Positions 33,385 through 37,722 of a stretch of 40,044 nt of DNA are shown here, piece by piece. The DNA comes from Methylocystaceae bacterium (GTDB lineage: Bacteria; Pseudomonadota; Alphaproteobacteria; Rhodospirillales; Terasakiellaceae): the NCBI GenBank assembly GCA_013373265.1, contig JABXIC010000138.1, positions 1-40,044 of the forward strand, given 5' to 3'. A model generated the notes under the pieces. The model did no database searches, was not told the origin of the DNA, and worked only from the letters and a program-made list of their open reading frames with translations. Position 1 is the first letter of the stretch; the number at the start of each line of letters is the position of its first letter. The position numbers and the translations under genes are program-made.

Positions 33385-34512
33385 ATGGGCACATATATTG
33401 TAGCGGATTGGATTATGGTGGATAACTTTTCAGCGAGTGGCGTACCGGAGTTGATGTTTGGACGCGGTGTGTTTGAAACACTGGGGCAACATACAATCGG
33501 CTATGGGGTGCGCTTGTTACTGGTTGGGGATCAGTTTCTGCAACATCATCCCGGATTGTTTAAAGACGTCGAAGATCGGCTTGTTCAAGCCGGGCATGTG
33601 GTTCAACATGTGCTGGCAGGTGAAAAACAAAGTGATGAAGCGGCAGCCGTTATCATTGAGCGCCATAATATTGAAAATTTTGATCTGGTGGTTTCCATCG
33701 GTGGCGGGCGCGCCATTGATACGGGTAAAATTGTCGCCAAGAAACTGCCTCATATTGCGGTGCCGACAACGGCAGGCACAGGTGCACCCATGAATGGTGT
33801 TATTTTTGGCGGTCAAGGGGCCCATGAAGAAACGCAACGGCGCTCTTTACTGCCGAGCTTGGTTGTGGCGGACCCGGCATTTATCGATGAAATGGACCGG
33901 GATGATTTTGCCGCACGTGCACTTGGCGTTCTGATGTTGTTGATTGAGGCTTATGTCTCCCCCAAAGCATCTGTTTTATCCGATTCCTTGGTCTGGTCTG
34001 GTTTGGAAGCCTTTGCCAAAGGGTTTGTGTCAGGCGTTGAAGGCGATAACAGCGGGCGTGATGAGGTTTTCTTTGCTTCATTAATGGCAGGCGTGGGCAG
34101 TGGGCAGGCCGGGTTTGGTTTGACCCATCGCATGGGGGTGCTGGTTGAACAGATGAGTGACCTGACCTATGCGCAGGCCTGTTCAACCCTCTGTGCAGAG
34201 ATTTGTGATTTTCAGATTCAGTTGTTAAGTGATCGTTTGCCCGATAGTGAAGCCATGGACAAATATGCCATGGTTGGGGAACTCTTGGCATCGCGCCCGT
34301 TTGAAGATCGTGAAGAAGCGTACGCTTCATTGATTGGTACGTTACGCCGTTGGGTGTCGCGCTTGGAAATTGCTAAAATTAAGATAGCAAAAAGAGATCA
34401 GAATGAGATTCAAAAACGTATCATTGCTGATTGGGACGATGTGGTTTTGCCCGTACGTTTGGATGGTGAGGATATCCACGAAATTTTATTAAGGCGCAGT
34501 GCGAACACTTAA
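33385..34512 (+). CDS. Iron-containing alcohol dehydrogenase family protein lacking most metal ligands
   Basis: 375 residues with the family fold: FGRGVFETL near 25-33, the NAD(P) loop VVSIGGGRAIDTGKIVAK (102-119), and VPTTAGTGAP (126-135; usually TAGTGSE). The usual metal site is degenerate: aligned to the DALTHAIEAY motif, Asp is G181 and His is L185; H248 (GLTHRM) is kept, but the following His, normally in PHG, is Y262. Whether it has alcohol dehydrogenase activity is doubtful. The start is uncertain (an ATG at 33415 is also possible; neither has a good ribosome site). The last 24 bases overlap the convergent response-regulator-like gene. Confidence 0.8.
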   Translation: MGTYIVADWIMVDNFSASGVPELMFGRGVFETLGQHTIGYGVRLLLVGDQFLQHHPGLFKDVEDRLVQAGHVVQHVLAGEKQSDEAAAVIIERHNIENFDLVVSIGGGRAIDTGKIVAKKLPHIAVPTTAGTGAPMNGVIFGGQGAHEETQRRSLLPSLVVADPAFIDEMDRDDFAARALGVLMLLIEAYVSPKASVLSDSLVWSGLEAFAKGFVSGVEGDNSGRDEVFFASLMAGVGSGQAGFGLTHRMGVLVEQMSDLTYAQACSTLCAEICDFQIQLLSDRLPDSEAMDKYAMVGELLASRPFEDREEAYASLIGTLRRWVSRLEIAKIKIAKRDQNEIQKRIIADWDDVVLPVRLDGEDIHEILLRRSANT

Positions 34513-35973
34513 AGGAAGTAAAGTTCCTTGATCGGTAATTGCCCGCTTGATTTGTTCAGGGATCAAGCCACGCGCTGATGACAGGTTGACGCCGCGCAAA
34601 TTGGTGCGATTAAGATTGGCCCCGCTTAAATTAACCCCGCGTAACGTTGCGCCTTCAAGGTTCGCCCCTGTTAAATCAGCGCCTAGGAGATTGGCTTTAT
34701 CCATGCGGGCTTCGCGCATATCGGCTTTTGCAAGACGCGAAACGCGTAAATCAGCACTTGAGAGTAAAGCCTTTTTAAAGGTTGAACCTGTCAGGTCTGC
34801 TTTTCTGAACACAGTGTTGGTGCAGTTTACATCTTCAAAGTTGGATTGTGGTAAAATGGCGCGGGTGAAATCCGCTTCATCAAGTTCTTGACCACGAAAA
34901 TCAGAATGCGGTCGGTTGGCTTGTTGCCCGCTTTTGCCGCCACTGTTAATCCAAAGTTTATGGAGGTCGAGACATTCTTCCAAATCCATAATTTCTTCAA
35001 ATTCATCACTGTCAGGCCCCGTTTCTTCAAAAGCAACCGGGGCTTTTTCTTTTGGTTCAGGTTTTGCTTCGGAGTCTGTTTTGATCTCGGTTTTCGTTTT
35101 TGATTTTTCTTTTGATTGGCCGTAGTCGATATCGTCTTTAGACGCGGTCATACGATCTTCAGAAGTAAAATCATAACTGATCTCTTTTGAGGCCGGGGTT
35201 TCTTGAGAGGTACCAAAGTCAAAGGGGCGATCAGATGATGTACCGGCCGCGGACGTATTTTTAAATTCAGGACTGCTATAATCTAACACGCCGCCATCAC
35301 TTTTGGTTGTGGTGGTGCTATTGCCCCAATCAAAATCTTGGGAATCGTCATTTGTGCGGTTATCTCTGGTCGAAGATTCGGAAAGGCCACCCGATAGAAC
35401 AGGAGAACTGTCTAATGAACTTCGCCCGGGTGTGATCGGCGTTTGATTGCGTGTGAACGAATCTGTTGAAAAATCATCTTGCGACAATCCGCTACGGCGG
35501 TCTTTTCCACCGAAATGGGGATCGTCGCGGGAACGTCTTTCCGGACCGAAGTAATGTCTGACACAGATAAACCGTCTTGGTTTTAAAATGACCGCGCGCG
35601 AGAAACGTTTTATCTTTTCCGGTTGAATGGGTTTGCGCAATGCCCCTTCGATTCCGGCGCGGCAGGCTTCGCGTAGCAGGTTTTGTGAGACTTTTTCGAG
35701 TAACATTAGAACGGGTGTTTTATAAAACGCACCCTCATTCATTGAACGAATTTTTTGGATCAGGTTTATGCCTGATATATTCGGGAGTTTGAGAGCAACC
35801 AAAATGACATCGGGCTTCATTCTCGGGATGTGTTTTAACGCCTCTTCCGGAGAGGGTGTCGCAACAAAGTCACCGATATCTGCGTCCAGATACGTTGTTC
35901 TGGCGATATCGATAACTTCGGGGTCCGTGTCACACATCAACACTTTGTATTTGCTGAATTCAAAATCAGTCAT
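34489..35973 (-). CDS. Pseudo-receiver / pentapeptide-repeat protein
   Basis: 494 residues in three parts. Residues 8-130 form a CheY-like receiver: acidic D15 and D17 and K114 (LRKPI) remain, but the phosphoacceptor position is A60 (DVILVALKLP), so it is unlikely to be phosphorylated normally. Residues 131-160 carry paired basic motifs GPERRSRDD and GGKDRR. Residues 161-330 are low-complexity Ser/Thr/Asp/Lys, probably disordered. From about 333 a helix-like DLEECLDLHKLWINSGGK leads into a run of about twenty pentapeptide repeats of the A(D/N)LxX type (about 355-468). Function is not known. It lies 104 bases upstream of nothing obvious and downstream of motB on the same strand. Confidence 0.82.
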   Translation of the reverse strand: MTDFEFSKYKVLMCDTDPEVIDIARTTYLDADIGDFVATPSPEEALKHIPRMKPDVILVALKLPNISGINLIQKIRSMNEGAFYKTPVLMLLEKVSQNLLREACRAGIEGALRKPIQPEKIKRFSRAVILKPRRFICVRHYFGPERRSRDDPHFGGKDRRSGLSQDDFSTDSFTRNQTPITPGRSSLDSSPVLSGGLSESSTRDNRTNDDSQDFDWGNSTTTTKSDGGVLDYSSPEFKNTSAAGTSSDRPFDFGTSQETPASKEISYDFTSEDRMTASKDDIDYGQSKEKSKTKTEIKTDSEAKPEPKEKAPVAFEETGPDSDEFEEIMDLEECLDLHKLWINSGGKSGQQANRPHSDFRGQELDEADFTRAILPQSNFEDVNCTNTVFRKADLTGSTFKKALLSSADLRVSRLAKADMREARMDKANLLGADLTGANLEGATLRGVNLSGANLNRTNLRGVNLSSARGLIPEQIKRAITDQGTLLPLSVRTAP

Positions 35974-36077: not shown

Positions 36078-36941
36078 TTATTGAGGTTTTGGACCAAAAA
36101 CACTTTCTAATTGATTTTGAACATTGTTGGCATTCTTAGCTTCTTTTGCGCCCAAAACCAATGTGATTTCAACACGACGGTTTTTCGCCCGGTTTTCTGG
36201 ACTGTCGTTGGGCACAAGCGGACGGCTATCGCCATAACCTTGCACAGCCATACGATCAGGGGGAATGTCGGTGTAATTTAAGAAATGATGTACGACAGAA
36301 GTCGCCCGTGCGGCTGAGAGTTCCCAGTTTGACCGATAAGGACCACCTGCACCCAGTGGGATGTTATCAGTGTGTCCGGCAACAATAACATCACCTTGTG
36401 ATTTTTTAATAACACCGCTTAATTTATCCAGTAAGTCGGCAAAGGCAGGTCCGACTTGCGCTGAACCGGAGCCGAAGGCAATTTCACTGGGGAAGCGAAT
36501 TTTTACTTCGTTACCGTTTTTCTCAACTTCGACCCCTTGTTCTGCCGCTTCTTTTGCGATGATTTTCGCGACTTCATTTTCTACGTCAGTGGCTTGTTGT
36601 TCAGGACTTTCTTGCGGGTCAACCTGAAATGACTCTTCATCCGTCGTATCCGGGATATCCATAGAAACAGTGGGTGTTGGCACATCGGTGGGAGAGACAT
36701 TGCGCGCGACTTTACGTTCCAACTGACCATCAATTTCAATGACGCCTGCCAGTCTGTCTTGTTTTGAAATACCAAAAGCATTGCGCATGGCGCCCGCCAT
36801 TTGTTTGTATTTCACTACGTTCATTTCAGAAAATGTTAGCAGAAGCACGAAAAGAACAAGCAGCAAGGACATCAGATCGGCGAAAGTCGCCATCCAAGCT
36901 GGGGAACCCGTCGGGGGGCATTTCTTTTCTTCTTCAGCCAT
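36078..36941 (-). CDS. motB: MotB/PomB-type flagellar stator subunit
   Basis: 287 residues. A single helix (about 21-39) contains the ion-carrying aspartate D22 in ATFADLMSLLLVLFV. A linker rich in Pro/Glu follows, then an OmpA-like peptidoglycan-binding domain with VVAGHTDNIPLG and RVEITLVLG. It starts 17 bases after motA and forms the stator with it, anchoring to peptidoglycan in the inner membrane. Ion specificity (H+ or Na+) is not evident. Confidence 0.92.
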   Translation of the reverse strand: MAEEEKKCPPTGSPAWMATFADLMSLLLVLFVLLLTFSEMNVVKYKQMAGAMRNAFGISKQDRLAGVIEIDGQLERKVARNVSPTDVPTPTVSMDIPDTTDEESFQVDPQESPEQQATDVENEVAKIIAKEAAEQGVEVEKNGNEVKIRFPSEIAFGSGSAQVGPAFADLLDKLSGVIKKSQGDVIVAGHTDNIPLGAGGPYRSNWELSAARATSVVHHFLNYTDIPPDRMAVQGYGDSRPLVPNDSPENRAKNRRVEITLVLGAKEAKNANNVQNQLESVFGPKPQ

Positions 36942-36957: not shown

Positions 36958-37722
36958 TTATTCGCTGTCTTCTTCTGCCGGTTTGCCGCCGGGGAGATAT
37001 ACGCCAAGCAGCTCTTGCAAAACCATCGGGTTTTGTGAGGCATGGATTTGCATAACGCTTTCAATAATCAAAGCGCGTGTATTTTTTGTGTTGTCGATTT
37101 TGATTTCAAGCTTATCTGCCAAGGGAATGGCAATCAGGTTGGCCAAAACCGCACCGTAAAACGTTGTTAACATCGCAACCGCCATGGCAGGGCCGATGGC
37201 TGCCGGATCAGACAAGTTTGCAAGCATCTGCACCAGACCAATCAACGTCCCGATCATACCAAAGGCAGGTGCCATGTCGCCCATGCCGCGCCAAAAGCTT
37301 TCACCTGCCATTTCGGCTTTAATCGCCATGTCGACTTCTTTGGTGATACTTTCTTTAATGACTGCGCCATCCATACCATCAACGCACATGCGGATACCAC
37401 GGGCCATCAGTTCATTTTCCACCGTAACGCTTTCCAGACCCAAAAGGCCCTTTTGGCGTACGATCCCTGCCAGTTCAATGGCAATGTCATAAACACTGCG
37501 GGGATCATCCGGTGAATTTTTAAAAGCGATCTTGCCGCCGATTTTAAGCGCTGCAATACAGTCTTTGAGTGGAAACTTCACAAGGGTGGCGGCCATTGTA
37601 CCCCCAAAGACCACCATGATAGACGGTACGTTGATAAATGCGCCTAGGTCACCGCCCAACATGATGGAGACGATGATAATGGCCATACCCAAGCCGATAC
37701 CTATAAGTGTCGCGAGATCCAT
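36958..37722 (-). CDS. motA: MotA/PomA-type flagellar stator subunit
   Basis: 254 residues with four predicted helices (about 5-22, 30-47, 150-168, 180-200). It matches the short PomA-like group: GGDLGAFINVPSIMVVFGGT at residues 23-42, the cytoplasmic charges near R89 and E97 that contact the rotor FliG, and MAPAFGMIGTLIGLVQML with the conserved proline at 152. Proton or sodium flow through the MotAB complex drives flagellar rotation. First gene of the mot unit; the 189-base gap upstream separates it from hrpB. Confidence 0.93.
   Translation of the reverse strand: MDLATLIGIGLGMAIIIVSIMLGGDLGAFINVPSIMVVFGGTMAATLVKFPLKDCIAALKIGGKIAFKNSPDDPRSVYDIAIELAGIVRQKGLLGLESVTVENELMARGIRMCVDGMDGAVIKESITKEVDMAIKAEMAGESFWRGMGDMAPAFGMIGTLIGLVQMLANLSDPAAIGPAMAVAMLTTFYGAVLANLIAIPLADKLEIKIDNTKNTRALIIESVMQIHASQNPMVLQELLGVYLPGGKPAEEDSE

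Follow-up and report, generated by a model that had tools for sequence, protein, structure and literature searches.

Known effectors and the case considered here

The Cle proteins (CleA-E) of Caulobacter crescentus are the closest described relatives of the protein analysed here. In these proteins, a CheY-like receiver is directly followed by an arginine-rich region, defined as a tandem [Y/F]xGP[D/E][R/K]R (Nesper et al. 2017, PMC5677366). This region was found to be needed for c-di-GMP binding and, when grafted onto another protein, sufficient for it (PMC5677366). CleA D67A is functional, and CleD, which has Glu at the acceptor site, is functional as E70A (Nesper et al. 2017, PMC5677366); Cle proteins thus work without phosphorylation, and loss of the acceptor Asp is affordable for them. 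The paper also surveys 302 peptide-bearing proteins, of which 91% consist of a single receiver plus the peptide; the extra domains named there are cNMP-binding, hemerythrin and adenylosuccinate synthetase, with no pentapeptide repeats, and in the part consulted none of the Cle genes is placed behind motAB (PMC5677366).

A gene behind motAB is described here that encodes a receiver and such a peptide, joined to pentapeptide repeats. The case that its product is a Cle-type CheY-like c-di-GMP effector with a tethered beta-helix output, co-encoded with motAB and acting at the flagellar motor, is judged to stand at about an even balance.

Anatomy of the fusion

The fusion gene lies in a stretch of 40,044 nucleotides, called the window, from a genome that its named relatives assign to Terasakiella. 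The following features were identified there.

34489..35973, minus strand: whole ORF, 494 aa, ATG start, intact; pseudo-receiver, Arg-rich peptide, disordered linker, pentapeptide repeats
35581..35952, minus strand: CheY-like pseudo-receiver, residues 8-131 (Pfam PF00072, predicted fold, alignments)
35794-35796, minus strand: acceptor-site codon, Ala60 (alignments)
35494..35553, minus strand: Arg-rich peptide of Cle type, YFGPERR-x6-FGGKDRR at residues 141-160, where a c-di-GMP dimer is predicted to bind (motif definition and CleD profile match)
34999..35490, minus strand: disordered acidic linker, residues 162-325 (composition and AlphaFold2 pLDDT)
34906..34998, minus strand: N-terminal cap ahead of the repeats, residues 326-356, HKLWINSGGKSG (family alignment, model helix 331-343)
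34576..34905, minus strand: right-handed quadrilateral beta-helix of 22 pentapeptide repeats, residues 357-466 (PF00805, model, Foldseek)
34492..34575, minus strand: C-terminal cap, residues 467-494, GLIPEQIKRAITDQGTLLP (conserved residues)
36078..36941, minus strand: motB (PF13677 4.1e-17, PF00691 4.9e-17), upstream of the fusion gene on the same strand, at a distance of 104 bp
36958..37722, minus strand: motA (PF01618 5.3e-24), upstream of motB

A preliminary description had read the protein as a pseudo-receiver, a Ser/Thr/Asp-rich linker and about 20 pentapeptide repeats, and Pfam, AlphaFold2, Foldseek and composition all bear this out. The AlphaFold2 model, built on a 21-sequence alignment, shows a confident receiver (pLDDT about 85-93), disorder over residues 151-321 (pLDDT below 50), a cap helix and a confident beta-helix, with most of the repeat region above 90. 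At its 3' end the fusion gene overlaps by 24 bases (34489-34512) the 3' end of a convergent iron-containing alcohol dehydrogenase gene.

The linker (164 aa; S 28, D 21, T 20; net charge -16) varies from 17 to 450 aa across the fusions, and within Terasakiella invariant columns make up 3% of the linker, 44% of the receiver, 40% of the peptide and 56% of the repeat domain. After removal of duplicates, 56 distinct receiver-linker-repeat fusions were collected from one order, throughout which they occur. The order of domains, whose conservation in homologues had been the point to check, is fixed in all 56 distinct proteins, so that the fusion is not due to chance.

The pseudo-receiver

Response_reg was matched at residues 11-122 of the fusion protein (Pfam, E 1.5e-15), and the predicted receiver fold matches CheY4 4hnr in Foldseek with a TMt of 0.92. 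Alignments place Ala60, within 'VILVALKL', at the phosphoacceptor position, as first reported, while D15, D17 and K114 are retained and the switch Thr/Ser position is Leu92. R101, in the predicted helix 97-106, is nearly invariant among mot-linked proteins and is a candidate counterpart of CleD R113.

The acceptor column of the 56 fusions holds G in 27, E in 10, D in 8, A in 4, S in 4, Q in 2 and N in 1. Homologues with an intact receiver Asp had been named as evidence against a pseudo-receiver; they do occur (8/56), but the Asp is missing in 48/56, including every mot-linked copy. With Ala60 the protein lacks the phosphoacceptor Asp of a phospho-dependent response regulator, and the Asp-bearing fusions include none that is mot-linked.

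A Cle-type peptide behind the receiver

Just after the receiver, YFGPERR occupies residues 141-147 and FGGKDRR residues 154-160 (sequence PRRFICVRHYFGPERRSRDDPHFGGKDRR). The first copy fits the Cle motif exactly, and the second has Lys for Pro, which counts against a Cle-type effector. From Y141 to F154 there are 13 residues, the same as from CleD R156 to R169 and the same as the spacing of the CleD peptide. With a profile of 13 fusions, the best match among 177,635 distinct PDB sequences was the CleD peptide 6sft_A (E 3.4e-4, next 0.18). Since the members of this profile had been picked for having the motif, the search was repeated with all six Terasakiella sequences, unselected, and CleD 6sft again came first in the PDB (E 0.0019, next 0.065). 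The single short peptide sequence gave no match in the PDB, and CleD was recovered by profiles only.

By motif definition and profile match, the paired basic motifs are a tandem Cle-type Arg-rich peptide, which is predicted to bind c-di-GMP. Its Cle-like position and 13-residue spacing, together with CleD as top PDB match, count for a Cle-type effector. The preliminary description had noted the GPERR/GKDRR pair, which is indeed present, but had missed its identity as a known ligand-binding motif. Because the pair is of Cle type, the pseudo-receiver module most likely senses a second messenger and is more than a constitutive adaptor. Of the earlier proposal, the non-phosphorylated pseudo-receiver with a tethered beta-helix is borne out.

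In the source genome the GPDRR peptide, in one or two copies, is also carried by the further receiver proteins L086, L087, L088 and L092 (contigs C66, C262, C25 and C183). L086 has the tandem peptide (YHGPDRRRRKEPAPNGVERR) and a long C-terminal region, and L092 has a cyclic-nucleotide-binding-like N-terminus ahead of the receiver.

The pentapeptide-repeat domain

Pentapeptide PF00805 was matched from residue 357 on (Pfam, E 1.7e-24). In one register 20/27 five-residue units fit the repeat pattern, against 0-2 in the others, giving about 22 pentapeptides at 357-466. H338, W341 and G349 of the N-cap are invariant in a 15-member family alignment; G469, L470, Q474, T484 and L486 of the C-terminal cap are conserved in the family alignment, and the length of the domain is nearly constant across the fusions at 134-140 aa. 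NCBIfam gave no named family, only weak Qnr/HetL/PipB-type repeat and generic receiver matches, all below cut-offs.

Foldseek matches of the beta-helix model include NP275-NP276, HetL, MfpA and QnrB, and this shared fold would fit a DNA mimic that acts, like Qnr or MfpA, on gyrase or another DNA-binding protein; the preliminary description had mentioned DNA mimicry among the known uses of such helices. The repeat domain is near neutral rather than acidic (net charge +2; family median -1), and mimicry is therefore not favoured. The Qnr model scores 33.5 bits against a cut-off of 240, MfpA likewise falls far below its own, and no link to gyrase or resistance genes was seen; a DNA mimic is accordingly considered highly improbable.

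Flagellar surroundings

The genes motA and motB lie upstream on the same strand in 28/28 of the Terasakiella (6) and Thalassospiraceae (22) proteins, within 423 bp in 27/28 and with a 2.5 kb insertion in the remaining one. In the window no terminator-like site was found on the minus strand between motB and the fusion gene, which allows co-transcription, though it is not demonstrated. Within family f4, the gene adjoins flhA, flhF and an flhG-like gene in genus g4, but fliI and fliJ in genus g45. The motAB linkage and these flhA-flhF-flhG and fliI-fliJ contexts count for action at the motor. Further in favour of a Cle-type motor effector, the source genome has 47 GGDEF matches and one FliM with the CheY-binding motif LNQDEIDSLL. 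Its two PilZ matches both lie in frames longer than 700 aa, so the search turned up no small brake of the YcgR type.

Against a motor role count the half of the fusions (28) that have no flagellar stator gene nearby, motAB being absent in the available stretches, some of them short, and the carriers without detectable FliM: FliM was found in 250/297 genomes of the order but not in the carriers G027, G041 and G280, drafts that may be incomplete. The connection to the stator genes proposed in the preliminary description thus holds in Terasakiella and Thalassospira but is not conserved beyond them. The carriers without FliM, the non-flagellar neighbourhoods in f19, f22 and f23, and the Arg-rich peptide on four other receiver proteins of the source genome would suit a c-di-GMP effector whose target is outside the flagellar motor, such as a polar or envelope process, with motAB adjacency reflecting shared regulation only. 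That reading is unlikely in view of three different flagellar neighbourhoods and of a motAB linkage without exception in two families.

Five MotB-plug matches on contigs C215, C295, C277 and C183 of the source genome indicate that several stator-like sets may coexist, and the fusion protein may serve any of them. A FliMN_C protein on contig C263 (L159), with adjoining SctR/SctT-like frames, seems to belong to a type III secretion system.

Descent and erosion of the peptide

The repeat-domain tree tracks taxonomic families, and descent is therefore mostly vertical. Spread by plasmids was considered and rejected, as no plasmid record has the whole protein and only the repeat region gave matches.

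Of the 56 fusions, 16 have the tandem peptide and 2 a single copy; in 23 (22 from Thalassospiraceae, one from Terasakiella) only YFGP is left of it, and 15 lack it. Every Thalassospira copy has lost the second half, two Terasakiella species have the peptide half or wholly eroded, and f22 and f11 lack it altogether. The tree has only a midpoint root, but since the tandem form occurs to either side of it, the peptide is probably ancestral, with later losses in Thalassospiraceae and in f22 and f11.

Since some eroded copies keep the motAB link, the family as a whole cannot have ligand binding as its common function; either these copies turned constitutive, or the stator link is independent of c-di-GMP. 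A ligand-free scaffold has accordingly been weighed, in which the pseudo-receiver would dock constitutively, the beta-helix would bind a second partner and the peptide would be a vanishing ancestral remnant. The absence of the tandem peptide in 40/56 fusions, the persistence of the receiver and of a repeat domain of constant length, and the motAB link kept by Thalassospira without the tandem peptide all suit this scaffold. In 4/6 Terasakiella species, however, the tandem peptide is intact beside a nearly unconserved linker and is apparently held there by selection, and the scaffold is regarded as a doubtful, though serious, contender.

Two observations concern other receiver-pentapeptide proteins. 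In G041 (family f17), a genome without a FliM match, the receiver-peptide-pentapeptide fusion L045:3838-4986 has both the acceptor Asp and the tandem peptide. G009 (family f5) carries three receiver-pentapeptide paralogues, L038, L039 and L040, one with a linker of about 450 residues containing repeated 'VPIEG' units.

Proposed mechanism

For the Cle-type motor effector the following sequence of events may be envisaged. A rise in c-di-GMP would lead to binding of a nucleotide dimer by the Arg-rich peptide, as motif and homology suggest, and the receiver would dock on FliM. Through the linker of about 165 residues, the rigid beta-helix would come to lie at or close to the interface of rotor and stator, and there it may alter how the MotAB complex encoded directly upstream engages or how much torque it delivers. 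In a more specific and only tentative form, the protein would act as a c-di-GMP-gated stator clutch, in which the FliM-docked receiver swings the beta-helix rod into the MotAB rotor-stator gap, so that braking would occur without PilZ. If the effector reading is true, c-di-GMP motor effectors of the Cle class include proteins with a large structured output domain, and the control of motility by second messengers is a further role of pentapeptide-repeat proteins.

Comparison with known systems

With Qnr and MfpA the fusion has in common the right-handed quadrilateral beta-helix, but its repeat domain is not acidic, is joined to a receiver and scores far below the family cut-offs. Pseudo-receiver response regulators likewise have the acceptor Asp replaced, whereas in the fusion this loss accompanies a predicted second-messenger-binding peptide. 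YcgR, the PilZ flagellar brake, resembles the fusion in the role proposed for the latter, namely to change motor output in response to c-di-GMP where rotor and stator meet; however, Pfam matched no PilZ domain in the fusion protein and the c-di-GMP site is different, so that the two are alike in working only. The open literature searched yielded no paper in which pentapeptide repeats, receivers and the control of motility come together. The Cle proteins have the receiver and then the tandem Arg-rich peptide at the same spacing, with phosphorylation dispensable in Cle and the acceptor lost in the fusion, and both are alphaproteobacterial and in a flagellar setting; the Glu at the CleD acceptor site parallels the A/G/E/S/Q/N residues of the fusions. 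The C-terminal regions of Cle proteins are variable in length and sequence, whereas the fusion has a long linker and a 22-repeat beta-helix. In conclusion, the fusion looks like a variant of the Cle class with a pentapeptide-repeat output, a build new to the searched literature.
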